Origin: Candidatus Levyibacteriota bacterium
GTDB lineage: Bacteria; Patescibacteriota; Microgenomatia; Levybacterales; UBA12049
Length of the DNA stretch: 33,384 nucleotides
Reading direction: 5' to 3'
NCBI GenBank assembly: GCA_027459745.1
Contig: DAIDHL010000001.1
Location: forward strand, 232,290-265,673
Shown: positions 1,796 to 19,034 of the stretch, one piece after another
How positions within the stretch are numbered: the stretch's first letter is position 1
Layout of the letters: every line of letters starts with the position of its first letter
Notes under the pieces: model-generated
Seen by the model: the letters and a program-made list of their open reading frames with translations, nothing else
The model's database searches: none
Told to the model about the DNA's origin: nothing
Translations under genes and position numbers: made by a program

Positions 1796-1972
1796 ATGGT
1801 AAGTCAGCAAGATCTTATTAAGTTCAAACAGCTTTACTATTTAAAATACCACATTCACCTTACAGATCAAGAGGCAATGAAACAAGCGACAGCGTTCCTC
1901 AACCTTATGCAAGTCATCCTAAGCCCAACAAAGAAAAAACAACAACCTCAATATGAAAACACGAACGCTTGA
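1796..1972 (+). CDS. Small helical protein upstream of recombinase 1
   Basis: A 58-residue protein starting MVSQQDLIKF; the track's TTG start at 1742 is rejected because it is the -35 hexamer. It contains 'HLTDQEAMKQATAFLNLMQV', a helix-cap plus amphipathic helix pattern found in small ORFs next to serine recombinases and integrases of mobile elements. The function of such proteins is not established; an accessory role for the recombinase is inference from position alone. Its last 20 bases overlap the recombinase start, so the two are probably translationally coupled and made from the same repressed promoter. Confidence 0.65.
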   Translation: MVSQQDLIKFKQLYYLKYHIHLTDQEAMKQATAFLNLMQVILSPTKKKQQPQYENTNA

Positions 1973-3605
1973 AGATTTATCATTACAACCAGTGCCCGTT
2001 TTTCACCGCTATGTTATTTATTGTCGGAAAAGTAGTGAATCAGATGAACGACAGGTACAATCTCTGGGTGACCAAACTAGTACCCTCCTACCATTTATTG
2101 AACAAAAGGGTCTAACAGTTGTTGGTGAACCATTACAAGAATCAAAATCAGCAAAGTCGCCTGGTCGACCAATGTTTAATCAGATGGTTGATACTATTGA
2201 AGAGGGGAGAGCCAATGGTATTATTCTCCTTAATCCCTCACGACTTTCTCGAAATACTGTTGATACAGGCAGAATTATTTTCTTAATGGATCAAGGAAAA
2301 CTCGAAGAAGTTGTAACACCTTACCAGACATTTAAAAATAACCCTTATGATAAATTCATGCTTAACTTACTTTGTACACAAGCGAAGTTGGAAAACGATA
2401 ATAAAAGCGTTAATGTAACTGATTCTATGCGAATGAAAGCAGAACGGGGGGATTATCCTGGCAAAGCGCGACCTGGGTTTATCAATAATCATTCGAAGAA
2501 TCAAGGTCAACGAGATATATCAGCACACCCTGTCTATTTCTCTCTAATGCGCCAATTAATTGATTATGCCCTAACTGGCAATTATAGTGTCGAAGCGTTA
2601 GTAAAAAAAGCAGGAGAGTTAGGTATACGAACCTATACAGGCAAAATCATTGGGAAAAGCTCACTGCACCGCTACTTACGTGATCCTTTTTATATTGGTA
2701 AATTTATCTATAAGGGTAAACTTTACAACGGCAATCATCCTCCACTAATGACTGAAGAAGAGTTTTTCTTATTGCAAGATATTCTTGATGGGAAAGGTCG
2801 AGGGAAAATACAGAAACACAGCTTTCCTTTTAATGAGTTGATCAAGTGCGGAGAATGTTCATATTGTATAACAGGAGAAACGCACACAAAGCAGTACAAA
2901 AATGGTACCTCGCAAGCATTTACCTATTATCGTTGCACAAAGAAAAGTAAGACACTCAAATGCTCTCAGCCATACGTTGCAGCAAAAAAACTGGAGAAAC
3001 AAATTATTGAAGAATTAGCTTGTTTAGAGCTAGATAAAGAATTTGCAGCATGGGCATTCGAAGCCTTAGAAGATGTCATTGGACAAGAACAACATGTGAA
3101 CGTAGATAAACAATCAGCTTTACAAACGGCACTTGATGGGGTAAATAAGCGAATGAACAATTTAGTTGAATTAAAAATATCACCGAATAACTCCGATGGC
3201 AGCTTACTTTCTGAGGAGGAATTCTCCGAGCGAAAAAGAACACTAATGAGAGAAAAAGAGAAACTTACAGAACAGCTTAAAAATATGAGCACCGAAAATA
3301 CAGACTGGGGGAGTATCGCGAGAGATAGTTTTGACTTTGGTTTGACAGCCTGCAAAAAGTTTGTTGAAGGCTATGATAATGATAGAAAAATGATCGTAAA
3401 GACCATCGGCTCGAAACTGATCTTACTGTATCAAAAATTAGACATCCAGCCTCAATTTCTCTTTCTCAAGTACAAAGAAGGTATAAAACGAACAAAAAAA
3501 GAAATTGCTCGGGTCGTACCTACGAATAGCCTGTCAGATCAATCTAATCTGCAATCTTCTGTAAAAAGTTTCATATGGTACCGCGTACGGGAGTCGAACC
3601 CGTGA
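1953..3605 (+). CDS. Large serine recombinase 1 (site-specific integrase)
   Basis: 550 residues with the layout of large serine integrases. The N-terminal resolvase domain has the nucleophile motif YCRKS (Ser27) and 'NGIILLNPSRLSRN'. A recombinase domain follows ('GNYSVEALVKKAGELGIRTY', 'GKSSLHRYLRDPFYIGKF'), then a zinc ribbon ('IKCGECSYCI' to 'YYRCTKKSK...C'), then a charged coiled-coil region around residues 370-450. These enzymes integrate or excise an element by cutting att sites with a 2-base stagger. The last codons (WYRVRESNP) are the complement of the T-arm and 3' end of tRNA-Glu, so the gene's own 3' end is the attachment site. It is probably the integrase of the element to the left. 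The native tail in the excised circle probably differs. Confidence 0.92.
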   Translation: MKTRTLEDLSLQPVPVFHRYVIYCRKSSESDERQVQSLGDQTSTLLPFIEQKGLTVVGEPLQESKSAKSPGRPMFNQMVDTIEEGRANGIILLNPSRLSRNTVDTGRIIFLMDQGKLEEVVTPYQTFKNNPYDKFMLNLLCTQAKLENDNKSVNVTDSMRMKAERGDYPGKARPGFINNHSKNQGQRDISAHPVYFSLMRQLIDYALTGNYSVEALVKKAGELGIRTYTGKIIGKSSLHRYLRDPFYIGKFIYKGKLYNGNHPPLMTEEEFFLLQDILDGKGRGKIQKHSFPFNELIKCGECSYCITGETHTKQYKNGTSQAFTYYRCTKKSKTLKCSQPYVAAKKLEKQIIEELACLELDKEFAAWAFEALEDVIGQEQHVNVDKQSALQTALDGVNKRMNNLVELKISPNNSDGSLLSEEEFSERKRTLMREKEKLTEQLKNMSTENTDWGSIARDSFDFGLTACKKFVEGYDNDRKMIVKTIGSKLILLYQKLDIQPQFLFLKYKEGIKRTKKEIARVVPTNSLSDQSNLQSSVKSFIWYRVRESNP

Positions 3606-3652
3606 TTTCCGGGATGAAAGCCCAGCGTCCTAGGCCACTAGACGAACGCGGC
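3576..3652 (-). tRNA. tRNA-Glu(UUC), CCA encoded
   Basis: A full cloverleaf on the minus strand: acceptor GCCGCGT/ACGCGGT (with a G-T first pair), D-arm, anticodon stem CTGGG/CCCGG with loop CTTTCAT (anticodon TTC, Glu), T-arm ACGGG..CCCGT with loop TTCGACT, discriminator A and encoded CCA at 3578-3576. The last 30 bases overlap the recombinase 1 ORF. The other three tRNAs in the window lack CCA, so this 3' end may have been supplied by the integrated element. Confidence 0.95.
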
Positions 3653-4450: not shown

Positions 4451-4473
4451 AGCAGAAGACCTTTGCTTGTCAA
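4451..4473 (-). promoter_or_regulatory. Promoter of the TM-helix protein gene
   Basis: On the minus strand TTGACA (4473-4468), 17 bases, TAAACT just downstream, giving a leader of about 10-15 bases before the ATG at 4428. The -35 box is shared with the opposite-facing tRNA-Lys promoter. Confidence 0.5.
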
Positions 4474-4495
4474 TATACAGCCTTGTTGGTATAAT
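4467..4495 (+). promoter_or_regulatory. Promoter of tRNA-Lys
   Basis: TTGTCA (4467-4472), 17 bases, TATAAT (4490-4495), about 40 bases before the tRNA. The near-palindrome TTGTCAA gives both this promoter and the divergent one a -35 box. Confidence 0.7.
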
Positions 4496-6122
4496 TATTT
4501 GTGCTCGTCTCAAAGTTGGCTAACTTTTTGATCGTGCGGCCCGATAGCTCAGCGGTAGAGCAGGAGCCTTTTAAGCTCTTGGTCCTCGGTTCGAATCCGA
4601 GTCGGGTCACTAAATTGAAATTTGGGTTCTCCATTGCTTGGATTAGCTCGAAACTGCGAGCCATTCCTACGGTTCGAATTTTATGATTCTTTACAAGTAA
4701 GCCTTCTGGAAATATCTCCTTTTGAAGTGCTTGTTGCTGGGTTAATTCCATATTTAGCCATAATTTATCTACGTTTAAGAGAAAGTTTGAAGTAAAGTTC
4801 TTAATTGATTCAGTATTGTACTGCTCAATTCGTATATCAGAGCGCTCTATTCTAAGGATAGCTATATCTTTTCTAGCTTCTTCTGCTCGTGTTTTAGCCT
4901 CATCATCAGTAAGGATACCTTTAGCGTTACCTTCGGAAATAGAAGTTATTTTATTTTCAAGACTTTGGATTTGAACGTCCAATATTTCTGCTTCCTTTCT
5001 TCTATGTTCAATACTTTCATTCCATTCATCAAAAACTAATTGGTTAAATAATTTTAGTACGCGTTCTGTGGGTCTAATTGATGACAGCAAGCTTAAAAAT
5101 TCATTATGCGCTTCTTCAACGTCAATTCTTTCATTTACTTTACAAGTTTTCTCATGACATTCGTAATAATAGTAATGTTTGTTTCTTCCTTTGGGATTGC
5201 TCGAAGTCATTACCTTCAAACAACTTGAACACCTTAAAGTTTCTTTTAGTGGATAAAGTTTGCTGTCTTGAGTTTTATATTTTCTTTTTGATTGGAAAAC
5301 GTTCATATAAGCTCGTTCCCATGTGTTCTTATCAATAAGGGCTGTATGTAATCCCTCCGCGTACTCTTTCCACTTGGGAGCATACATATACCCATAATAA
5401 AAGGTATCACTTATTATGTGTGTAATCAACTTGCCTGTAGCAGGCCTACCATAAACTTGTTCAAATCCCAAACTATTAAGATATTTTGCTAAATTTTTCT
5501 TACTTGTTGGTAACTTAGAGGCTTCTATAAACATTGTTCTAAGCATCTTGCTCAGTTTTTTGTCTAATATTGGCGGTTTTCCTTTATTTTGTTCTCTTGT
5601 AGTAAATGGGCGTTTATATCCAATATGTGGTTTCCAAGGCCAAAGTCCATTTCTAAACATTGTTTGCATATTATCTTTAACACGTTCTCCTTTAAGATTG
5701 TTGTCAAGCTCTCCTAATGCCATTAGGATTGTTCGCATTGCTTTACCCATTGGATTTTGTTCTGTAATTTCTGTAGCTGGTAGTACAGATATCCCATACT
5801 TTGCTAGAAGTGAAATTGCTACTAGTCCTTCCTCAACATTTCTTGTCCACCTATCCATTTTATAAACAATTACCGATGAAATTTTATTTTTTTTGATAGT
5901 ACAGTATTCAAGCAGTCGCCTCATCTCCGGGCGAGTATTCACATGTTTGGCAGAAATACCTTTGTCACGGAAAATTTCCACAATATCGTATCCGTTGTTT
6001 TCCGCAAATGCTTGACAAGTTTTAGCCTGAGTTTCTAGGCTATTATTATCAATTTGGCTAGGGTCAGAAACACGGATATAAATTACTGCTTTACGTCTTA
6101 GCGTTGTTTGTGTTGCTTCCAT
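4470..6122 (-). CDS. Large serine recombinase 2 (site-specific integrase), 3' end antisense to tRNA-Lys
   Basis: 550 residues. The N-terminal catalytic domain has YIRVS (Ser19) and 'VIVYKMDRWTRNVEEGLVAI'; then comes a recombinase domain ('KNLAKYLNSLGFEQVYGRPA', 'ISDTFYYGYMYAPKW'), a zinc ribbon ('LRCSSCLKVM' to 'YYYYECHEKTCK') and a coiled coil near residues 370-440. The catalytic domain is only distantly like recombinase 1. Residues from about 505 on ('RLGFEPRTKSLKGS...') are the complement of tRNA-Lys and of host sequence beyond it; the stop codon falls in the host -35 box. The functional protein therefore probably ends near residue 500, and the tail is an accident of integration. It lies with a small ORF in one operon and is probably the integrase of the element to its right. 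Confidence 0.92.
   Translation of the reverse strand: MEATQTTLRRKAVIYIRVSDPSQIDNNSLETQAKTCQAFAENNGYDIVEIFRDKGISAKHVNTRPEMRRLLEYCTIKKNKISSVIVYKMDRWTRNVEEGLVAISLLAKYGISVLPATEITEQNPMGKAMRTILMALGELDNNLKGERVKDNMQTMFRNGLWPWKPHIGYKRPFTTREQNKGKPPILDKKLSKMLRTMFIEASKLPTSKKNLAKYLNSLGFEQVYGRPATGKLITHIISDTFYYGYMYAPKWKEYAEGLHTALIDKNTWERAYMNVFQSKRKYKTQDSKLYPLKETLRCSSCLKVMTSSNPKGRNKHYYYYECHEKTCKVNERIDVEEAHNEFLSLLSSIRPTERVLKLFNQLVFDEWNESIEHRRKEAEILDVQIQSLENKITSISEGNAKGILTDDEAKTRAEEARKDIAILRIERSDIRIEQYNTESIKNFTSNFLLNVDKLWLNMELTQQQALQKEIFPEGLLVKNHKIRTVGMARSFELIQAMENPNFNLVTRLGFEPRTKSLKGSCSTAELSGRTIKKLANFETSTNNYTNKAVY
4538..4609 (+). tRNA. tRNA-Lys(UUU)
   Basis: 72 bases with acceptor GGCCCGA/TCGGGTC, D-stem GCTC/GAGC, anticodon stem GGAGC/GCTCT with loop CTTTTAA (anticodon TTT, Lys), T-stem CTCGG/CCGAG with loop TTCGAAT and discriminator A. 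No CCA is encoded. It lies entirely antisense within the 3' end of the recombinase 2 ORF and is the likely integration target of that enzyme. Confidence 0.96.
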
Positions 6123-6487: not shown

Positions 6488-7147
6488 TCACGCAACAGGA
6501 AGATTATTTATAGGTTTAACATCATGAGTTTGTAGCCAATGATGAAGATTTGCGGGCGTTGTATTATAACGTTTTGCGACAAACTCTTTGGTTGAGCCAT
6601 TTTTAAGGAGTGCAAAAATCTCTATAGAATATGGGTCTAGTTTTGACTTACCAATTTTTCCAGCTGGGCGCCCAAGTTTTACACCTTGGAGCTTCCGCGC
6701 GTACAAAGCCTCGCGGGTTCTTGAAGCGATAAGGTCTCTCTCAACCTCTGAAGCAAGACTAAAACAAAAGGCAATCATTTTAGATTGCAGTGAATTATCT
6801 AAAACCCAGTTGCCTTTAACTGAATATACGCATATTCCTTTTTGTGTCGCAATTGAAAGCAACTCCATGACCTCTAGCATGTTGCGAGCCAATCGTGAAA
6901 GCTCTGAAACAATGAGAGCATCTCCTTTTTGCATAATATCAATTATTTCTCCGATTTTACGTTTTCTCCACTGAACTGTGCCTGACATTTGTTCAGAAAT
7001 AAATTGGACATGTCCTAAATGTTTTGTGTTTGCTAGTTCTAAAATTGCTGCTTTATTTTTTTCTAAATCTTGTAATGCAGTTGAAACCCGTAGATAAGCG
7101 TATGTTTGATGTATATGATTAGATTGCTGATTTAATGAAAACGTCAT
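6488..7147 (-). CDS. Small serine recombinase (resolvase/invertase type)
   Basis: 219 residues. 'YAYLRVSTALQDLEKNKAAI' holds the catalytic Ser22, and 'DALIVSELSRLARNMLEVME' and 'SEVERDLIASRTREAL' are conserved resolvase/invertase segments, followed by 'GVKLGRPAGK' and a short C-terminal HTH ('TKEFVAKRYNTTPANLHHWL'). Members resolve cointegrates or invert DNA at paired sites. The start is the ATG at 7147: the 52 extra residues in the track are not resolvase-like, and a promoter lies in that stretch. It is divergent from the NTPase gene. The nearby palindrome could be its site. No transposase is present, so it is not a complete Tn3-type unit. Confidence 0.88.
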   Translation of the reverse strand: MTFSLNQQSNHIHQTYAYLRVSTALQDLEKNKAAILELANTKHLGHVQFISEQMSGTVQWRKRKIGEIIDIMQKGDALIVSELSRLARNMLEVMELLSIATQKGICVYSVKGNWVLDNSLQSKMIAFCFSLASEVERDLIASRTREALYARKLQGVKLGRPAGKIGKSKLDPYSIEIFALLKNGSTKEFVAKRYNTTPANLHHWLQTHDVKPINNLPVA

Positions 7148-7187: not shown

Positions 7188-7254
7188 GCCTTTTCTTTAT
7201 ATGAAAGTGAATAATTAAAAGGAACGTTTATACTTAATAAGGTATAGTTTAAGA

Positions 7255-7283
7255 TTAACAATATTTTTAGATAGGAGTATAAT
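7255..7283 (+). promoter_or_regulatory. Promoter of the NTPase, predicted leaderless
   Basis: TTAACA (7255-7260), 17 bases, TATAAT (7278-7283); the ATG at 7291 is 8 bases past the -10 box, where transcription would begin. No ribosome binding site is present. Confidence 0.65.
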
Positions 7284-7290
7284 GCTGTGA

Positions 7291-10200
7291 ATGAAGCAAG
7301 CAAACAGGAAAAGCAAGATTAAAAACCTCTTTTTAAGCTCTGCGAAAAGATATAAGAAATTCTGGATAAAATCTAAGAGTAAAGTCTACAAGATTGTAAT
7401 TGACCGCAAATTAAAACTTATTAAGGCTTCACGGAAGTCCAAAAGCGTTATAAATAATTTTATTAACCATCTCAAAGGAGTCTGGCTATGGCTATCAATT
7501 CTTATTGGAGGATTTTTTTATTTGGCAATTGAAAGCGAATTATCAACTCTTTACACAACTAATTTGCAAAGCATGAGAATTATAACACTTGGATTAATTG
7601 TTATATTTCTCTTATTAGTAAATTTTGTTCTTAAACCTATAGAAAACCTAAGAAAGGAAAAACTATGGATTCAACACTCATGGGTATTTTATTCATACTT
7701 TACAGTTCTAGCCTCTCCACTAGTAGCTTTTTTTCTAAAATACATATTTTTTGACGAGTTATGTTCAAAATTAAATATCCAATGCTATTCATTGCTTACA
7801 GGGAGTCATTTTTTTGTATGGGATTTAATAATTAGACTTCTAATAGTCATTATTGGAATTGTTCTTTTTGTTTCCATTAAAGGTGAATTACCTGATATTG
7901 CCTTACGATTTGCTGCCGGTTCCGTAGGTTTACGTGATGACTTGCTTGGATATGCTGTTTCTGCTAAAAACTGGGCATTAGGTTTAGCTAAACTTAATGA
8001 TTATGTTAATGTTGTCTATTTATATGGAGATATGGGATATGGGAAGTCTTCACTTGCCAGAATGATTGTAGAGAGTTTTGATAGAAGAAAAATACTATAT
8101 ACATATATATCCCTGACCGAAACAAATCAAGCAAAAGATTTTTCCTTACTTTTTTCTGAAAGATGGCTAGAATCACTAAAAGAACGGTATCCTAAAATTA
8201 GTGTATTAGACGACTCGCTTTTTTTAAGCTCTATTTTACGTGAAAGCGGAAATGGTTTTTTATCTGAGTTATTATCTTTTATTTCAAAATTTGATAAAGG
8301 ATTAAAGCCAACAAAGGCAAAAATTTATGACCAGTACATTGATAAGAAAAGAGAGCATACTACAGACTATATTGCTCAGCTATTTGGTAATATTCCTGAA
8401 TTCCATGAAACATTGTGGATTGTAATGATTGATGAGGTAGAAAGGGCAAAACTAGAAGAAATTTACAGAGTTATAGAAGTTCTTGAACGATTTAAGGCAG
8501 AAGGTAGGCCTGGATTACCTCTAAAATTAGTATTTATCCTATGTATTTCTCCACATGATTTAGATGAACTCCTTAACAATGCTAATGATGAAAATAGCGA
8601 AATTAAACACCAAATAAGAAAATTTATGACAAATGATTCAAAAAGCGCACTTTCAAGAATATTTTTGCCTCCTCTCTCATACGCAACAAGAAAAGGCTAC
8701 TTAAATAAAATCTTAGGAAATTTTATTTCCACATACAAAATAAAAATACCCGAAAGTCTTGAAAAATATAATCCTGATACATTTTATAACTCCCGTGACA
8801 AATCTAATATTCCCTATAATGAAGCATTGCAGTTCGGGCTAGGCTTGCTTATATATGAAGCTCCAAGAACGATACAAAGAAATATACAAGAGCTTGAGCT
8901 TATATATTCATCTTTCAGAAATATTGAAGGGAAAACTATATTAGGTTACATACGTTTCCCCGATATTTTAATTGTAACCTATGCAAGCATTAGATTCCCA
9001 TTCTTAATAGTTTTTTTTCAGAAGACAATAAATATGTTTCTGTTAGACCAGAATGATTCTTTCTCAATTTCAAGGTACTTAGATAGAGATAAGTACAAGA
9101 AAGGTGAGAAAAACATATTTACTTGGATAGCAGATGAGACAGGATATGAAATTCCTGATAAAGAAAAGGAAACTATTTCAAGAATTATAGGCATGATTGC
9201 ACATTTTTACTTGAATTATGTAGGAGATAAAGAAGTGAGCCAGAATAACATTTGGCGTGAAACTTCCCTATCAAAACCTGAAAACTTACGAGATTATCTA
9301 GCTATTATAGCGAGTGAACCAACTGATGCCTCAAGAAAAGCATTTCAAACTTACCTCTTTCACCAAAATAACTTAAATAAAAATTATCTTAAAAATTTAT
9401 CGCCACTGGATTTAATTGAATATTCAAGGTTTCTGTGGCCAACTGAGGATGCAAATATTTTGTGTAAGCTTGAATTAGCAAACGAATTCTGTAAAAGGTT
9501 TGCAAGTAGAAAAATACCTAAAGTAAAATATGGTATTCATGATACAATTTATGAGGAAGCAATTTATCAATTCCTATTTAATTTATTAGCTATTCATGAA
9601 GCAGCCGATGCCTACCAACCAACTCAGGATGCTCTAACTGCCTATTATCGAGTAATTCAACTTCTAAAGGACTTTTTATTATCTCCTAATGTAATTACTG
9701 GTGGAAAGTATCTAATGCTTAACTCTTTGTTAAATACAGAAAAACCAGGAGGCGGAGATGTATCATTCAGATTATCGAAAATGTATGGCAAAATGAAAAA
9801 AGAAGGCAATGGACTTTATGATGAAGTAAAATTTGTTGTAAATGAAGCATATAAAAAGTATTTTGATGGCAAACTAGATATTTATGATAATGAAGAAAAT
9901 TTTTTCTATGTGTTGTATCAGAGTTGGACAGGTAAGAAAGACGATGTGGAAGTAATAGCCAAAATTCAACAGGCTGCAATGCGAAATTTGTCTAAACATG
10001 TACCAGCAATAAAATTATTTTGGCAATTACTATACCCGTATAAAGGTGGTCTGCCAACAGATATTGATGAATTGACAAAGTCATTTATTATCAATACAAG
10101 TGAAAATGCTGAGTTTTTTTTGACACTCGAGCAATTAGTAAGAGCTACCCATAACGCAAATTTGAGCAATCTCGAGCCTGAGTTAAAAGAGAGAATTGAT

Positions 10201-10344
10201 TGGTGGGACCAAATAGCAAATAACCCTGAAGAGCTAGCAAAATATAAATCTTGGCGGAAAATTATAGACAAAAACGATACTTTAGTAGGATTTCTTTTAA
10301 GAAATGGTTTTTTTACAAAGTTGAGTGAATTAGAAGGAAATTAA
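7291..10344 (+). CDS. Membrane-anchored KAP-like P-loop NTPase
   Basis: 1017 residues. A lysine-rich N-terminus (1-62) precedes four predicted membrane helices (about 64-81, 96-114, 132-152 and 174-196). The P-loop domain follows: 'LLGYAVSAKNWALGLAKLND', Walker A GDMGYGKSS (246-254), and Walker B 'WIVMIDEVERAKLEEIYRVI' (about 376-395), then 'LPLKLVFILCISPHDLDELL'. This order resembles KAP-family STAND-type NTPases, which are often membrane-linked and include the phage-exclusion protein PifA. The 580 C-terminal residues are mostly helical and I recognise no domain in them. The gene is in the middle of the second element as cargo, with an XRE gene overlapping its 3' end tail to tail. A defence or membrane-sensing role is inferred from family and position only. 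Confidence 0.75.
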   Translation: MKQANRKSKIKNLFLSSAKRYKKFWIKSKSKVYKIVIDRKLKLIKASRKSKSVINNFINHLKGVWLWLSILIGGFFYLAIESELSTLYTTNLQSMRIITLGLIVIFLLLVNFVLKPIENLRKEKLWIQHSWVFYSYFTVLASPLVAFFLKYIFFDELCSKLNIQCYSLLTGSHFFVWDLIIRLLIVIIGIVLFVSIKGELPDIALRFAAGSVGLRDDLLGYAVSAKNWALGLAKLNDYVNVVYLYGDMGYGKSSLARMIVESFDRRKILYTYISLTETNQAKDFSLLFSERWLESLKERYPKISVLDDSLFLSSILRESGNGFLSELLSFISKFDKGLKPTKAKIYDQYIDKKREHTTDYIAQLFGNIPEFHETLWIVMIDEVERAKLEEIYRVIEVLERFKAEGRPGLPLKLVFILCISPHDLDELLNNANDENSEIKHQIRKFMTNDSKSALSRIFLPPLSYATRKGYLNKILGNFISTYKIKIPESLEKYNPDTFYNSRDKSNIPYNEALQFGLGLLIYEAPRTIQRNIQELELIYSSFRNIEGKTILGYIRFPDILIVTYASIRFPFLIVFFQKTINMFLLDQNDSFSISRYLDRDKYKKGEKNIFTWIADETGYEIPDKEKETISRIIGMIAHFYLNYVGDKEVSQNNIWRETSLSKPENLRDYLAIIASEPTDASRKAFQTYLFHQNNLNKNYLKNLSPLDLIEYSRFLWPTEDANILCKLELANEFCKRFASRKIPKVKYGIHDTIYEEAIYQFLFNLLAIHEAADAYQPTQDALTAYYRVIQLLKDFLLSPNVITGGKYLMLNSLLNTEKPGGGDVSFRLSKMYGKMKKEGNGLYDEVKFVVNEAYKKYFDGKLDIYDNEENFFYVLYQSWTGKKDDVEVIAKIQQAAMRNLSKHVPAIKLFWQLLYPYKGGLPTDIDELTKSFIINTSENAEFFLTLEQLVRATHNANLSNLEPELKERIDWWDQIANNPEELAKYKSWRKIIDKNDTLVGFLLRNGFFTKLSELEGN

Positions 10345-10557
10345 ATCTCTGGTTTTAACTCCGAGTGTATCGGCAATTTTCATAAGTACTTTCATGGAAG
10401 GCATTTTGTGACCAATTTCAATAATTGCTAGGTAGTTATGGGTTATTCCAACCTTTTCGGAGAGTTGTTCTTGTGTTAATCCTTTACGTTGCCTTACGGT
10501 TTGAATTGTTCTTCCCAGAACATAGTTTTTATTTCTTAGCGGATTGGGCTTGCTCAT
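10330..10557 (-). CDS. XRE/Cro-family HTH regulator 2
   Basis: 75 residues, nearly all one Cro/CI HTH: 'LGRTIQTVRQRKGLTQEQLS', 'VGITHNYLAIIEIGHKMPS', 'LMKIADTLGVKTRDLISF'. Its last 15 bases overlap the end of the NTPase gene in the opposite direction, so antisense transcription could also couple the two. It diverges from the PH-domain gene across a 128-base region that holds repeated GTCAATA/TGACAGT motifs on a strong promoter, the obvious operator. It therefore probably represses the PH-domain operon and itself. Whether it also controls the NTPase, whose promoter is 3 kb away, is unknown. Confidence 0.85.
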   Translation of the reverse strand: MSKPNPLRNKNYVLGRTIQTVRQRKGLTQEQLSEKVGITHNYLAIIEIGHKMPSMKVLMKIADTLGVKTRDLISF

Positions 10558-10685: not shown

Positions 10686-11174
10686 ATGGAAGTAATTTAT
10701 AGACGAAGTCCATTTTCGGTTTTTGGAACAAATCCGCTTAGAATACTTATGCCTCAAGGCTGGTTAGATGCCCTAGGGTATACTAGAAACTACATAGTTT
10801 TGACAGATGATGCAGTTGTTCTCAAACGTGGAATAATCAATAAAAGGAACACATCTATAAATTACGACAAGATAAATTCTATTAAAATTGAGCAAGGTTT
10901 TCTTGGTGGTTTATTTAATTTTGGAGATGTTTTTATCATTAGTGGCAATGATGTTCTTGGGGAAGTAGTCAGAGGGATTATTAACCCTGAAAAGTTAAAA
11001 GCCGATGTTCAGGAGCGAATAAATATGTCTGGAAAGCATAAAACGCACAATTCTGCTGTTGAAATAAAGGATGATAACTTGGATAAGTTAGAAAAACTGG
11101 CACAATTAAAGAAGAAAGGCATAATCACTGAAAAAGAATTCGCAGCAAAGAAGAAACAACTCCTAAGTGTATGA
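10686..11174 (+). CDS. PH-domain protein with C-terminal SHOCT motif
   Basis: 162 residues. Residues about 28-110 match the bacterial PH fold of YdbS/YdbT-type proteins: 'YTRNYIVLTDDAVVLKRGII', 'TSINYDKINSIKIEQGFLGG', 'FGDVFIISGNDV'. The last 30 residues, 'LEKLAQLKKKGIITEKEFAA' and 'KKKQLLSV', are a SHOCT motif, which often follows such domains and is thought to mediate oligomerisation. No membrane segment is present, so it is probably cytoplasmic or peripheral. It is transcribed from a promoter covered by probable repressor boxes and ends in an ATGA overlap with the next small ORF. The ligand is unknown. Confidence 0.82.
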   Translation: MEVIYRRSPFSVFGTNPLRILMPQGWLDALGYTRNYIVLTDDAVVLKRGIINKRNTSINYDKINSIKIEQGFLGGLFNFGDVFIISGNDVLGEVVRGIINPEKLKADVQERINMSGKHKTHNSAVEIKDDNLDKLEKLAQLKKKGIITEKEFAAKKKQLLSV

Positions 11175-12722: not shown

Positions 12723-13310
12723 CTATCCTGCGAAGTTTCCGCTAGTTTGAGTTTGTTGTGCCTGTTTTTTCCTTTCTTGCTCTGCTAGCCATGCGGCTTC
12801 TTCCTCTGGAGTTTCAATTAGTTTGTCTGGGTATGGTGGTAACTCTAATCCATTTGCCCACGTCATATAGACTGGTGGGCGTACACTGTTCTGAATATGT
12901 ATAGATGTGTTTTGAGTTTGTTGGTGAGGGTCAAAGCCAAGCCCTAATCCTTCAAGCTTCAAGCCTTCAACGAGGTATGAAAGCACATCTTTGGCAGTTT
13001 GGGGTTCAAGGTCATCTTCCATAAGCCTTTTTATAGCTTTACTACTTGCTAGTCTTCCAAGTTGGACTATTTTCTTTTTGTACTGCACTACTTCGTTTTC
13101 TGCCTGTTTTTGGATACGTTCCGTTGCCTGAAGGATAAGCTTTGCCCTTTTTGCAGGCCATTGTTCTTTTAAGCCTCTAAATTCAATAGTGCGTAAAGGC
13201 ACGCTATATTTATCAGCAAGCTTTTGGTATGACATTTGAGGGTCAACCAAGTAATCGTGAAGCATTTGAAGCCATACATTGGCTTGGATTTCATTTATGA
13301 AATTATCCAT
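12723..13310 (-). CDS. Phage terminase small-subunit-like HTH protein
   Basis: 195 residues. The N-terminal 45 residues contain an HTH ('YLVDPQMSYQKLADKYSVPL' then 'RTIEFRGLKEQWPAKRAK') of the kind that begins terminase small subunits, which recognise pac or cos sites. It is followed by a helical oligomerisation-like part ('AENEVVQYKKKIVQLGRLAS', 'LEPQTAKDVLSYLVEGLKLE') and a proline- and glutamine-rich tail. No large subunit, portal or capsid gene is present. It may be a phage remnant, part of a satellite that packages itself in a helper phage, or another HTH DNA-binding protein. The similarity is to a general pattern, so the call is tentative. Confidence 0.5.
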   Translation of the reverse strand: MDNFINEIQANVWLQMLHDYLVDPQMSYQKLADKYSVPLRTIEFRGLKEQWPAKRAKLILQATERIQKQAENEVVQYKKKIVQLGRLASSKAIKRLMEDDLEPQTAKDVLSYLVEGLKLEGLGLGFDPHQQTQNTSIHIQNSVRPPVYMTWANGLELPPYPDKLIETPEEEAAWLAEQERKKQAQQTQTSGNFAG

Positions 13311-13768
13311 ACGATTTTGAAGGCTAGGATTACCATAACTGCACCATAGCCTTACGCAATTATTTTACAAGAAATTTGTCAAATAATTTAGCTATTGGAC
13401 TGATATAGTTTGATATGTCTAAGAGCTTAGACCTTTGCGCGCGCGACCTTAGAAATAAAATATGTTTTCGCTTAAATCAATTCCTATCTATGATTCTAAT
13501 ACTTAAACGGAGTAATAGGAAGGCTGTGCGATGAGCCTATTTGTTTCCTGTCCAAACAGTTGAAAGTACTTAATGAGGTCAGGTATAATATGATTCCGAA
13601 CTTTAACCCTTTGGGTCACCGAAAAGAAAGTAAATATCTGAACACTACTATTATTCCCTTTTAGCTTCATACTGAATAAAATATCTGATTATAAAGTATA
13701 TGTTAGTATTGAGATACCATTTCTATAGATTGTATTTAGTAAAACTTATGTGATTATAATAAAAGTAT
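13311..13768. other. 458-base intergenic region, probable right edge of element 2
   Basis: No coding sequence is seen. It holds an inverted repeat TCTAAG-AG-CTTAGA (13418-13431), a GCGCGCGCG run at about 13438, TATAAT-like sequences, and GGGTCAC at 13613-13619, which matches the last bases of tRNA-Lys (4604-4610) with partial similarity continuing beyond. That makes it a candidate for the far attachment site. Confidence 0.4.
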
Positions 13769-15676
13769 ATGGCTGAAGGTGGAATAGCAGGAGAGACTGG
13801 AATAATGCTCACAAGAACTGAAACGTCCAGAAGTCTCAAAGAAGCAGAAAAATATAAGGCACTTGAAGTATTAACTAAACTGGGTTTGCTTATGCCTGTA
13901 AGTCAAATGGAGGTATATCATGGGCGTGTGGGGAAAAAAGGTGAGCAATGGAAAGTAGATCCAATGTTCACCAAAAATGGTAATCCTGCCAATAACAGAA
14001 ATGTATATGTAAGGCCTGCTCTATATGCTTCAGATAGAGAAACTGCCAAAGCTTTTGCGCTATCACGAGCTTCTGAAAAAATTCCTCCCTCATATAAAGC
14101 TATTGCACTTGAGACTATACAAAATTATACCCCCGCAGAACGTCAATCATGGTTGGATAGAGTGAATCATGAAGCAGCAGAAAGAGTAAGAGATATTGGT
14201 GGTAAGCCAGCTGTTTATACACCGTCTGATCTTAACAAACCGGGTTTTATACATAATGAAATTCGTTATTTAGCTCACCGTGCCTTTAGAGATAGCATGA
14301 ATTCTATCTCGCAAATCGGAACAGACCTTCGTATGGAATTACATGAAATTGCTGCTATAGATACTGAAGCAAGAGTGATAGATTTACGCTTTGATATCAA
14401 TAAACTTACCCCTGAAGATAAATTAAAGTACAAACATGCTTTAGAAGCACTCGCTATAGCAGTGACAGTAGGTTCTCCTCTAAATTTTGAGGTACGAGAA
14501 GATTTACCTAAGTTTACTAATGCCGTAAATGAATTACAATTAATCGCACAAAAAAAATTTATTTTATCACGTGAGATTGCTCAAATTGCCAGTCATGCAG
14601 GAATAAGTGAACAGACAGCCTTACAGATATCCAGTGCGTTTAATTCTCGCCAAATGGCTTTAAGTAAACCACAATATCTCGCAAATCGGCTTTTGTATAA
14701 TTCATCTAACATATTTAATGAAACAGGGGTCATTATAAATGGTAGTAGAGAAGACTTACCCATAAATTTGGAATATGCAGAAAGATACATGCGTGAGGCA
14801 CATATAGTTGCTGCACAACAACCCGTAGATTCTGTTACTCTTGATCGAACAATCCAGGCTGTATCTTTCTTTGATCTTGATAAAATCGGTACCCGAGAGC
14901 AAATTGATATACAAAGACATGATATGCTACAAAAAATGAGAGGACTTATTGATGTATTTCCACAGTTACCTAATTTAGAAGATGCAGGTGCAGCAAGTCC
15001 ACTTATTGTAGCGTTACAAGATGCTCACGTAAAACCTCACCAACTATTAGATACAGCAAAACAGATAGGAGAATTTAAAAAAATTTATGAGAGTGATGCA
15101 GGAAACTGGGAAAGGTTTACACTAGAAGAACATACTGAAACAGTACTCAGGAATTTTGATGAGAATTTCGCTGATATAATTCCTGTTGAATATTTAGTTC
15201 CACTACGCTTAGCAATTCTCGTACATGACTTAGGAAAACCTTTGGCAGTAAGTCGTGGAGAAAAGCAAAATCAGAAATCATATAACGCATTTTATGCTAA
15301 AGATTTCCTTAGATCCATAGGTATTGACTCTCGCATGCAGGAATTGATTAGCGCAATTATTACAGATGGTGCTGACCTCGCATTTAAATTACAAACACAA
15401 CCGCAAAATGAAAATACACGATTGGCCATGGAAATTTACGCAGAAGATGTATTGAAAAGATATCTTGGCACCAATATGATTAGCAGTTCACAAGTACAAG
15501 CATTTTCACAAATGTGTAAAATTTTGCAGCTTTGTGATGGTGGTGCATATACAGACATGGCTATTACAAGACGTCCCACAAAAGGAAGTTTTAGAAATGC
15601 ACCATCTTTTAATAAAAGCTTTGCTCCTCCAATTGGTTTAGGCAGAAGAGATATTAAATATCCTGAAGCTCAATAA
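13769..15676 (+). CDS. HD-domain protein with a possible ADP-ribosyltransferase-like N-terminus
   Basis: 635 residues, no signal peptide. Near residues 48-100, 'MEVYHGRVGKKGEQWKVDP' and 'NVYVRPALYASDRETAKAFA' recall ART-fold proteins, in which a YHG strand is followed by a 'lY.s...A..fA' segment; this is only a pattern resemblance. Near residues 450-510, 'FTLEEHTETVLRNFDENFAD' and 'LRLAILVHDLGKPLAVSRGE' form an HD-type metal phosphohydrolase core (HTE, VHDLGK), followed by helices. The region between (100-440) is helical and unrecognised. An HD enzyme with an N-terminal effector is a possible reading. It is the first gene outside the likely element and stands alone. Confidence 0.6.
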   Translation: MAEGGIAGETGIMLTRTETSRSLKEAEKYKALEVLTKLGLLMPVSQMEVYHGRVGKKGEQWKVDPMFTKNGNPANNRNVYVRPALYASDRETAKAFALSRASEKIPPSYKAIALETIQNYTPAERQSWLDRVNHEAAERVRDIGGKPAVYTPSDLNKPGFIHNEIRYLAHRAFRDSMNSISQIGTDLRMELHEIAAIDTEARVIDLRFDINKLTPEDKLKYKHALEALAIAVTVGSPLNFEVREDLPKFTNAVNELQLIAQKKFILSREIAQIASHAGISEQTALQISSAFNSRQMALSKPQYLANRLLYNSSNIFNETGVIINGSREDLPINLEYAERYMREAHIVAAQQPVDSVTLDRTIQAVSFFDLDKIGTREQIDIQRHDMLQKMRGLIDVFPQLPNLEDAGAASPLIVALQDAHVKPHQLLDTAKQIGEFKKIYESDAGNWERFTLEEHTETVLRNFDENFADIIPVEYLVPLRLAILVHDLGKPLAVSRGEKQNQKSYNAFYAKDFLRSIGIDSRMQELISAIITDGADLAFKLQTQPQNENTRLAMEIYAEDVLKRYLGTNMISSSQVQAFSQMCKILQLCDGGAYTDMAITRRPTKGSFRNAPSFNKSFAPPIGLGRRDIKYPEAQ

Positions 15677-15780
15677 AATTTGAAAATTTAATTATACTAG
15701 ATTAGTTTTTATGTTTTAACTATACTTTATTTAATATTTAATCTAAAAGTTCGCTTTGGTATATTAAAAAATATTTGTTT

Positions 15781-16827
15781 TTAGCCTAGAAGCTTTGCTG
15801 CGTGAGGAATTTTTCTTATAAGAAATGCAATTATAAATGAAATTGATATAACGATCAAAAAATATAAAATATCAAACCATAACTGCTGAAGCGAATTCTG
15901 AGTTTTACTCAAAATATTTAGAGCCAAATAATTCCAGGTATATTCAATTACCAGCACATGAACAAAAAATACCAAAAAAGAATGTCTTGAGAGTTCTTTG
16001 GCGAATGGGTTAATTTTTTTTGGTTTAGTAAAAAAATAGTATAATAACGAAGCAATTATAATTGTATAAATCATTACACTTGGTCTCCATTGGGAATAAA
16101 ACATTCTATAGTCTTGGGTATTCAAATAAAATATTCTACCTTCAAAATAAAGCAAAACTGTGGATAAAACAGCAAGTACAATTAGAATTTTCTTGTATTT
16201 TTGTATTAAGGTTAATATCCTATCTTTATGATGAGAAGAATAAATTCCTAAAAAGAAAACAAAAAAGTTCAAAAACACGATGTTTAAAGGATTAAAAAGA
16301 GGAAAGGCATGTAAATAATAGTCAATAATTAAAAATATTAATTCCAGAGTGCCCATCACGATGATTGAGGAAGTTCTGGATAAAAATTTAAATTTGTAGT
16401 GTAAATAAGGAAACAACAGATAAAATATAAAAAGAGAGGGAATAAAATATAACTGATAAGATGAACCACCCGTTGGGAGTGCATTAATAAAAAATGAGAA
16501 AACAGAATTTTTATGGAAAATTAAAAAAAAGTATATAGCACTCCATACTATATATGGAATTAGTATCTTGCTTAGACGCTTTTTTAAAAAGCCCAAATAA
16601 CTTGTATGAAATGGATAATTCATTTCTAAAACAAAACCGGAAATCATGAAAAAAAGAGGTACTGCAAAACGTGATGCCTGGTTTAGAAATAAAGTTACTG
16701 GCACTGAATCTAAGTTATTATTAGCTAATTGAATTGTTTTGGTTGTGGTATGAATCATTACTACAGCTAAAATAGAGATCATTCGTAAGTAATCTATAGC
16801 AGTATCATAAGGTTTGTTTTTTTGCAT
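15781..16827 (-). CDS. Acyltransferase 3 family membrane protein
   Basis: 348 residues with about ten hydrophobic helices. It begins 'YDTAIDYLRMISILAVVMIH', carrying the family's early arginine and histidine, then 'SRFAVPLFFMISGFVLEMNY' and 'KKRLSKILIPYIVWSAIYFF', all typical of acyltransferase 3 (OafA/YrhL/NolL-like) proteins. These transfer acetyl or other acyl groups onto sugars of surface polymers or lipids at the membrane. It lies in the same direction as, and 68 bases after, the polyprenyl synthetase gene, so the two may share a transcript and both act in envelope biosynthesis. The acceptor cannot be predicted. Confidence 0.88.
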   Translation of the reverse strand: MQKNKPYDTAIDYLRMISILAVVMIHTTTKTIQLANNNLDSVPVTLFLNQASRFAVPLFFMISGFVLEMNYPFHTSYLGFLKKRLSKILIPYIVWSAIYFFLIFHKNSVFSFFINALPTGGSSYQLYFIPSLFIFYLLFPYLHYKFKFLSRTSSIIVMGTLELIFLIIDYYLHAFPLFNPLNIVFLNFFVFFLGIYSSHHKDRILTLIQKYKKILIVLAVLSTVLLYFEGRIFYLNTQDYRMFYSQWRPSVMIYTIIIASLLYYFFTKPKKINPFAKELSRHSFLVFFVHVLVIEYTWNYLALNILSKTQNSLQQLWFDILYFLIVISISFIIAFLIRKIPHAAKLLG

Positions 16828-16895
16828 ATATAGAATATTTAATGCTATTTAAGATATTAAATCTTTAAAAAATAAAATAATTTATGACATTTGTA

Positions 16896-17789
16896 CTAAA
16901 TAGCAGAACAAAAAACGGCTAAATTTTTGAAAGAAGTTTTTTGTATATCACTTAGCTCAAGTTTATCAATACTTTTTAATCCTTTTTCAAAATACTCATT
17001 CAAACGGTAAGTTATCTCTGTTTTCGTTTTACTAATATTGCCCTTGTTTTTATTCAATAAATGTTGAACAATGTTTGGCACACTATTCTTTTTATCATTA
17101 CTGCTTTTTTCACTCGTACCCATTTCATCTAACCAGTCGTCTTTCATTTGAAATGCCAAACCCACATTATGGGCGTAATTATTTAACTGATGAACATCTT
17201 TTTGACATAACTTTAAGCCAAATGATAAAGGATATTTAAAAGTATAATTGACTGACTTTTCTACTGCAATGCTCTCACTGATTGAACTGTTAATATTTTT
17301 ACCCCAATTTGCCATTTCAAAAAATTGTCCAAGGTATAGTTGCTTTTGCATTTTAATAAAATCGATAACTAACTGCGGACAGGTTGTAAATATAAGTTGA
17401 TTAGCATATGTAATAAGATAATCTCCCAATAAAATGGCTGTGTCTTCTGGATATCCCATTTTTGTATAGGCTTTATGCGCAGAATCTACACTTCTTCTTA
17501 AATCAGAATTATCTATGATATCATCATGTACCAAAGCGGCTGTATGTAATAATTCAAGTGCTACGCCGCTTGAGAGTGCTTGTCTATCCATGCTTCCTTT
17601 TGCTAAGACTATCAGAAACGGTCTTAGTCTTTTGCCTGATTTAACCAAGTCTAAGAAAGGCAAGAAAAAGTCATGATAATGAGCGCCGATTGTTGAATTT
17701 TCAAATTCATTTATAAGGTTGTTTATAATTTGCTCAAACTCTTTTTCAAACTCAGGTAGGAATGATTGATATAATTTATCGTTTTTCAC
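16896..17789 (-). CDS. Polyprenyl diphosphate synthase (trans-isoprenyl synthetase)
   Basis: 297 residues of the polyprenyl synthetase fold. The first aspartate-rich motif is DDIID in 'ALVHDDIIDNSDLRRSVDSA', and the second is DDWLD in 'GLAFQMKDDWLDEMG'; 'SGKRLRPFLIVLAKG' supplies the substrate-binding arginine. These enzymes add isopentenyl diphosphate units to an allylic diphosphate, supplying quinone or lipid-carrier chains; chain length cannot be judged here. The start is a GTG 7 bases past a TATACT -10 box, so the transcript is almost leaderless. Promoters for this gene and for the divergent gene at 17868 overlap. Confidence 0.9.
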   Translation of the reverse strand: MKNDKLYQSFLPEFEKEFEQIINNLINEFENSTIGAHYHDFFLPFLDLVKSGKRLRPFLIVLAKGSMDRQALSSGVALELLHTAALVHDDIIDNSDLRRSVDSAHKAYTKMGYPEDTAILLGDYLITYANQLIFTTCPQLVIDFIKMQKQLYLGQFFEMANWGKNINSSISESIAVEKSVNYTFKYPLSFGLKLCQKDVHQLNNYAHNVGLAFQMKDDWLDEMGTSEKSSNDKKNSVPNIVQHLLNKNKGNISKTKTEITYRLNEYFEKGLKSIDKLELSDIQKTSFKNLAVFCSAI

Positions 17790-17796
17790 TGCAGTG

Positions 17797-17845
17797 AGTA
17801 TACATGATTCATTACATTTGCATCAAATTGAAAAGCTACTATAAT
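17797..17845. promoter_or_regulatory. Overlapping divergent promoters
   Basis: Plus strand: TTGCAT (17818-17823), 16 bases, TATAAT (17840-17845). Minus strand: TTGATG (17826-17821), 18 bases, TATACT (17802-17797). The two -35 boxes overlap, so the polyprenyl synthetase and the DUF1861-like gene may compete for polymerase. Confidence 0.6.
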
Positions 17846-17867
17846 ACATGCAGACAACTTTATAACT

Positions 17868-19034
17868 ATGGTTGAATCTATTGGGGCCAGACGCCTGGCG
17901 GATTTACCACTAGGCAAAACATCACCATTTTTAGCAAATTTGGTTGATCGATATGAAGGACTGAAAGCCCTGGGTAATGGCTGGGTACAAGAAAAATCAG
18001 CGCAAATTATAAATATTGAACCACTTAATCCCCAACAACCTCTGGATATCTATAATGGTTTATTTATCTATTTAGCTCATTTAAACAAGCTGGTCTTAAT
18101 AGCCAGAGGCGATAAGCCTGGCACTCAACATGGACAAGTAATATCAGCTGACGCAAGGTTTGAAAAAAATGATGTTAAATGGGTTCAGGATGGATTAAAA
18201 ATTCCAGGCGAAGATCCAACTCCAGCTCCTTCATTATTAGGTGAAGATATGTACCTCTCAAGAACAGATACAACAAATTTGAAGGATGGCTCAGGATTGG
18301 TTGCCAGCTGGCGTCCAGCGATCAATATTGTTAACTATCGTGATAGGCAGTGGTACACAAAACCTGTTGCTAAGGGAGAAGAAGGTCAAAAAGATCTTTT
18401 ACTCGGGTTTCACAAAGGTAATACTCACATCGTATCCAGATATAGAACGGGTAGTATAGAAGACGGAATAACCTCAGGTTTTAGAATGGGAAAATATTTA
18501 GATCAAGATCCCTTGCATTTACAAAACTATCTAAAACAGACAAGTACAGATCGTAGTTATGACATAGATGACGGCAGGCCTGCAGGTGAAAAGTTGTCAT
18601 GGCCCGGGGGTAATCAAATTGTTTTTCTGCAGAATGGCAATATTGGTCTGCTTGGACATGATGGAATGTATACATCCGATTTGCAAAGGCCTTATATTAC
18701 TACTGTACGTGAATATAATAAAAATCATCAGCTAGTTGTGCCTCCGTTTGCTATCGCCACAACAGATGATATGCCTCCATTATCACAAACAGGAACCCAT
18801 GAAAATGATTTAATTCATACTGTATTTTTTAAACAGGTCATTGCAGGGGTCGATTCAAAAGGCAGAGAAGTCAGTTGGACATTAGTCGGAGGACTAAGGG
18901 ATAAAAGGCTTATTGCAGTTGCATTAAGCCGCTCTCCATTTTCCAGTCCGTTTGATAAACAAAGTAACTCTTTATTTGTAGTGCCCTTAGGTGTATTAAA
19001 GGCGTATGGTTTACCAACTACGAAAGCGGCCTAA
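17868..19034 (+). CDS. Possible DUF1861-type beta-propeller protein
   Basis: 388 residues, mostly short beta strands with no membrane segment or signal peptide. Motifs such as 'GEDMYLSRTDTTNLKDGSG', 'SWRPAINIVNYRDRQWYTKP', 'WPGGNQIVFLQNGNIGLLGH' and 'VSWTLVGGLRDKRLIAVAL' suggest a bladed propeller like the DUF1861 family or five-bladed glycosidases. I do not recognise the family securely. If it is related to those glycosidases, it would act on or bind sugars, but no catalytic pair is evident. It is transcribed alone, between the prenyl synthetase and UvrA, each with its own promoter. Confidence 0.5.
   Translation: MVESIGARRLADLPLGKTSPFLANLVDRYEGLKALGNGWVQEKSAQIINIEPLNPQQPLDIYNGLFIYLAHLNKLVLIARGDKPGTQHGQVISADARFEKNDVKWVQDGLKIPGEDPTPAPSLLGEDMYLSRTDTTNLKDGSGLVASWRPAINIVNYRDRQWYTKPVAKGEEGQKDLLLGFHKGNTHIVSRYRTGSIEDGITSGFRMGKYLDQDPLHLQNYLKQTSTDRSYDIDDGRPAGEKLSWPGGNQIVFLQNGNIGLLGHDGMYTSDLQRPYITTVREYNKNHQLVVPPFAIATTDDMPPLSQTGTHENDLIHTVFFKQVIAGVDSKGREVSWTLVGGLRDKRLIAVALSRSPFSSPFDKQSNSLFVVPLGVLKAYGLPTTKAA

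Follow-up and report, generated by a model that had tools for sequence, protein, structure and literature searches.

The window analysed here is a 33,384 nucleotide stretch of contig DAIDHL010000001.1 (positions 232,290 to 265,673) of a Candidatus Levyibacteriota bacterium; it contains a gene for a 1017 amino acid nucleoside triphosphatase (NTPase) that, judged by comparison with related elements, is the interchangeable accessory cargo of a serine-recombinase element integrated at tRNA-Lys. We read the product of this gene as a divergent KAP-like, membrane-anchored defence NTPase of the PifA/Tmn type, directed against phages or mobile elements, and give this reading a probability of about 0.55. 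A defence role is probable from the position of the gene and the kinship of its product, and the strongest evidence is the position, in a slot that is held by defence genes in sister elements. We tentatively propose, with somewhat less confidence, that it represents a new single-gene defence system, in which a KAP-like NTPase with a four-helix N-terminal anchor and a C-terminal half matched by no recognised family is spread between distant Patescibacteria by tRNA-targeting serine-recombinase elements.

The window is syntenic with a genome of the same genus (G001, contig C4) on both sides of the tRNA-Lys element, and the elements at this tRNA in the two genomes share the resolvase (75% identical), XRE (60%), PH/SHOCT (82%) and DNA-binding protein (46%) genes. 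Left of the slot, DNA conservation between them ends at position 7239, 52 bases before the start of the NTPase gene, which is the sole occupant of the window slot between the conserved resolvase and XRE genes (Table 1). The corresponding slot of G001 is occupied by the methyltransferase Mod (E 1e-159) and restriction enzyme Res (2e-94) of a type III restriction-modification (R-M) system, the PADLOC candidate PDC-S18 (4e-99) and two unknown open reading frames (ORFs). A second element of the window genome, at tRNA-His on contig C19, carries resolvase, type III R-M, XRE and DNA-binding protein genes in the same order, and its Res is 93% identical to that of G001; on the other side of its resolvase lie a cyclase of the cyclic oligonucleotide-based antiphage signalling system (CBASS) type (E 4e-102) and a 2TM/SLATT effector (L071:12435-13899). 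The slots of both sister elements thus hold known defence genes, and two further large-serine-recombinase loci, one on contig C21 of the window genome and one in genome G016, carry KAP proteins; this association is a raw observation at these loci, made without a background rate for defence genes near such integrases. The first-pass annotation had described the NTPase gene as mobile-element cargo among recombinases and an XRE gene, and as a defence candidate. These surroundings are as it described them, the variable slot on a tRNA-integrated element bears out the cargo status, and the type III R-M, PDC-S18 and CBASS genes make the defence context stronger than it knew. A role of the XRE protein as regulator of the NTPase gene is not supported, as it is encoded by an element backbone gene that is convergent with the NTPase gene.

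Protein searches of 100 relatives and 380 phylum genomes, and pair-profile searches (see below) of 374 class genomes and a second, overlapping draw of 380 phylum genomes centred on the homologue's genome, found a single full-length homologue, which is 33% identical to the window NTPase. Among the genomes searched, the protein is therefore present in none of the class besides the window genome and in one other of the phylum. The homologue is encoded in a WWE3 bacterium, on the 8.2-kb contig PCSU01000022.1. This contig opens with a fragment of a serine recombinase that shares 42% identity with the window integrase, and the gene directly after that of the homologue encodes a surface lipoprotein of the Ltp family (PF07553, E 6e-25; L018:6162-6845). 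The two NTPases are 65% identical in two catalytic blocks and 25–38% identical elsewhere, the transmembrane (TM) region, lid and C-terminal half each being 25–29% identical; in this two-sequence comparison the NTPase engine appears conserved and the rest drifting. Searches of IMG/VR, phages and plasmids with either protein or with sub-alignments gave no match. Fifteen weak phylum matches (E 6e-4 to 0.01) were set aside, those inspected being P-loops of DnaA or an aminopeptidase-like protein with no relation to the NTPase. Neither a housekeeping match of the C-terminal half nor a conserved, non-mobile locus of the homologue, the two findings that the first-pass annotation had named as speaking against its proposal, was encountered.

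The NTPase ORF is intact, with no internal stop across its 1017 codons. Hydropathy analysis predicts four membrane segments (amino acids 63–81, 97–115, 136–154 and 178–196), all before the P-loop as had been annotated, with no TM peak between Walker A and Walker B, and the same is true of the WWE3 homologue. The Walker A (G246-DMGYGKSS-254, amino acids 246–254) and Walker B (WIVMIDEVER, 376–385) motifs, reported before as intact, are both present and near-unchanged in the homologue, and both proteins keep two cysteines, C158 and C165, in the loop that joins helices 3 and 4. Residues 1–62 include 21 K/R and one D/E, and by the positive-inside rule this basic N-terminus places itself and the NTPase domain in the cytoplasm; both termini are predicted to be cytoplasmic. 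The C-terminal half is long and predicted to be helical, although by low-confidence models. The earlier statement that the C-terminal residues belong to no recognised family holds, but residues 421–672 align weakly with the part of KAP proteins that follows Walker B, and only residues ~690–1017 are without any match. Upstream, the end of a strong promoter-like sequence is only 8 nt from the ATG, and a leaderless transcript may result, as judged from this consensus match; a ribosome-site-like AGGAG is present 13 nt upstream of the start.

No Pfam, NCBIfam or PHROG family matched the window NTPase above cut-off. Its best Pfam matches are weak and generic (AAA/ATPase_2, top E 1.7e-4, below cut-off), and the KAP model PF07693 gave no match to it and only E 0.048 to the homologue, short of the curated Pfam threshold. 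As family models failed, an alignment of the window NTPase and its sole homologue was built and compared by hhalign with five PF07693-containing proteins taken from the relatives' genomes. The two profiles align with probability 96 and score 82 over 385 columns, from a D-x-L-x-Y motif that precedes the two Walker motifs, through both of these, to a post-core PR..R region, and the DnaA control reached score 46 over 70 columns, in the P-loop only. In single-sequence comparisons four of the six KAP/PifA proteins, namely F-plasmid PifA and three KAP proteins of the relatives, score 45–54; the controls ClpX, Lon, FtsH, MalT, RtcR, DnaA and a STAND protein score 23–42, in the P-loop region only. The PADLOC PifA model (PDLC02361), which finds F-plasmid PifA itself at 2.9e-290, does not match the window NTPase and matches the homologue at E 1.2e-4 over 53 residues only, not the full model; by BLAST the homologue matches the PifA-like KAP protein of the window genome (2.7e-5 over 210 amino acids). 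These comparisons suggest that the core is related, distantly but genuinely, to the PifA-like part of the KAP family. In KAP proteins Walker B is DD-x-DR and the TM helices are inserted inside the NTPase domain. Strict KAP membership of the window NTPase is not supported, since its predicted TM helices precede the domain and it falls below the Pfam threshold; its Walker B is IDEVER (IDEIER in the homologue), in which the acidic and basic positions are kept, with D replaced by E. The KAP connection made in the first-pass annotation therefore stands as PifA-like kinship of modest strength over 385 collinear columns, but not as strict membership.

Several observations weigh against our reading. 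In the single-sequence comparisons QatA and KAP_G005 score 40–41, which does not exceed the highest score among the non-KAP controls, and without Walker A the KAP profile score drops to 33 (eight shuffles gave 14–21), a remainder that is suggestive but not strong. The only PADLOC defence model to match the window NTPase is Aga1, unconvincingly, at E 0.016. AlphaFold2 confidence is low, with predicted local distance difference test (pLDDT) values of 38.6 for the full pair alignment and 33.6 for the core alone, because the alignment held two sequences. And with a single homologue, guilt by association extends to three elements of one genus and one distant contig.

With regard to ancestry, the core could be a generic AAA+ domain (TRIP13-like) that was later membrane-anchored, its KAP likeness being convergence on shared ASCE (additional strand, catalytic glutamate) motifs. 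Among PDB sequences the core profile matches the AAA+ protein TRIP13 best (E 2e-4, P-loop region), and the generic top Pfam matches and the IDE-x-ER instead of DD-x-DR Walker B point the same way. The C-terminal half has no PDB sequence match. No ATPase_2 (PF01637) member is present in 40 relatives, hence the comparison has no profile control for that family. However, the KAP alignment extends from the D-x-L-x-Y motif as far as the post-core helical region, which those of DnaA, ClpX, Lon, FtsH, RtcR and MalT do not (QatA, with its control-like score, is the exception among KAP proteins), and we consider a generic origin unlikely; it concerns ancestry only and would be compatible with a defence function.

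Two other functions were considered. The Ltp family includes superinfection-exclusion proteins, and an Ltp-family lipoprotein gene following the NTPase gene in WWE3, together with the location of the window gene on an integrative element, would fit a membrane NTPase with which the element keeps competing mobile elements from entering or becoming established, or stabilises itself, rather than one acting against lytic phages. The NTPase gene is not part of the backbone, however, and sister elements lack it and have classical defence genes in the slot, so a gene for the element's own exclusion or maintenance is improbable, to about the same degree as the generic AAA+ origin. KAP-type NTPases also have non-defence members, and the protein could be accessory cargo of another kind, for example an ATPase that serves an episymbiont in membrane signalling or as a surface scaffold. 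The very narrow range of PifA, for which the BASEL authors suggested a main role possibly elsewhere (PMC8594841), is in keeping with this, but the near absence of the NTPase from the genomes searched in its class and phylum and the defence genes that are its slot-mates make it quite unlikely, the least likely of these alternatives.

If the window NTPase is a defence protein, it probably acts in an abortive mode. PifA and RexAB are believed to detect phage proteins and to kill through membrane depolarisation (PMC8594841). The C-terminal half of the window NTPase would be the sensor, either of a phage product or of damage caused by infection; nucleotide binding would then make the NTPase cores assemble or change conformation, and this change would act on the four-helix bundle so that the membrane is permeabilised or depolarised and the infected cell is stopped ahead of phage release.

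Table 1. Features of the tRNA-Lys element and its surroundings, and large serine recombinases at tRNA genes in the window genome. Coordinates are those of the window unless a locus is given.
Feature	Coordinates	Strand	Remarks
Large serine recombinase	1953-3605		tRNA-Glu at 3576-3652
Large serine recombinase (integrase)	4470-6122	-	ORF runs into tRNA-Lys
tRNA-Lys(ttt)	4538-4610	+	Integration landmark
Mpi/invertase-type small serine recombinase (resolvase)	6488-7147	-	Backbone gene left of slot; start taken as ATG at 7147
Variable cargo slot	7240-10345		Right border is XRE gene
Promoter-like TTAACA-N17-TATAAT	7255-7283	+	11/12 consensus positions; consensus match only
KAP-like membrane-anchored NTPase, 1017 amino acids	7291-10344	+	Four predicted TM segments, Walker A, Walker B, predicted helical C-terminal half
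XRE/HTH_3 regulator	10330-10557	-	Backbone gene right of slot, convergent with NTPase gene
bPH_2 + SHOCT protein	10686-11174	+	Backbone gene, 82% identical in G001
HTH/terminase-small-like DNA-binding protein	12723-13310	-	Backbone gene, present in all three sister elements
Large serine recombinase	L071:10160-11911		tRNA-His at 10168-10243
Large serine recombinase	L073:1164-2861		tRNA-Gln at 1122-1193

No attachment-site direct repeat of at least 12 nt was found from tRNA-Lys into the right flank, and the right end of the element is therefore placed only within 13435–15823. Near this uncertain end, the window encodes a 635 amino acid protein (13769–15676) that at residues 452–490 weakly matches a Cas3-HD-like phosphohydrolase (E 9e-4). 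Four large serine recombinase genes of this small genome each overrun, in convergent orientation, the 3' end of a tRNA gene, a different one in each case (Table 1); example C-termini of such tRNA-overrunning recombinases are RVRESNP, TRLGFEPRTKSL and GGQRESNPQPLD. The 3' ends of tRNA genes are the usual targets of tyrosine integrases, so these four look like a lineage of tRNA-targeting serine integrases. Beside the type III R-M genes of both sister elements (L047:14308-16278 and L072:582-2621) are genes for two unknown proteins, a 405/428 amino acid pair that is 76% identical and a 247 amino acid protein that is 85% identical, which may be accessory parts of the R-M system. The KAP protein on contig C21 is a PifA-like NTPase of Pfam grade (L073:3189-5333; PADLOC PifA E 1e-82) whose gene adjoins the tRNA-Gln integrase gene, and in G016 (contig C14) a complete qatABCD lies beside a large serine recombinase, with a 1366 amino acid STAND-like NTPase nearby (L074:4462-11345 and 13888-17988).

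Most genomes of the Candidate Phyla Radiation (CPR) reportedly have no CRISPR-Cas, their defence depending on nonspecific systems, R-M among them (PMC12455944). A slot that holds a restriction system in one species and a membrane NTPase in its sister offers a concrete route to search for CPR defences, and the anchor, engine and C-terminal half of the window NTPase are separable in sequence, so they can be tested apart.

Among known systems, the window NTPase resembles F-plasmid PifA, which is reported to sense T7 proteins (PMC8594841), in its KAP-type core with collinear motifs, its carriage on a mobile element and its long post-core region. It differs in that PifA is 741 amino acids long and aligns over its full length with PF07693 proteins, whereas the 1017 amino acid window NTPase is unmatched by PF07693, its P-loop is preceded by four predicted TM helices at the N-terminus, its Walker B reads IDEVER and its C-terminal half is unrelated; direct similarity between the two extends no further than Walker A. 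With the KAP family (PF07693) as a whole it shares the collinear D-x-L-x-Y, Walker A, Walker B and post-core PR..R region, but its TM segments stand before the domain and its match is below the Pfam cut-off. QatA is also a KAP NTPase, and its operon in G016 likewise lies beside a large serine recombinase, but it acts in a four-gene operon, whereas the window NTPase is a stand-alone membrane protein, and its similarity score of 40 is like that of non-KAP controls. Tmn is a KAP NTPase that blocks T2, P1, phiVi and phiX through a mechanism not yet known (PMC11846954); it is likewise a large single-gene membrane NTPase, set apart, by its description, by its two TM domains as against four N-terminal helices here. 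Within the PifA/Tmn kind, the window protein stands out by predicted membrane helices that come ahead of the NTPase core and are not inserted within it, and it would broaden a kind of membrane NTPase whose mechanism is poorly known.
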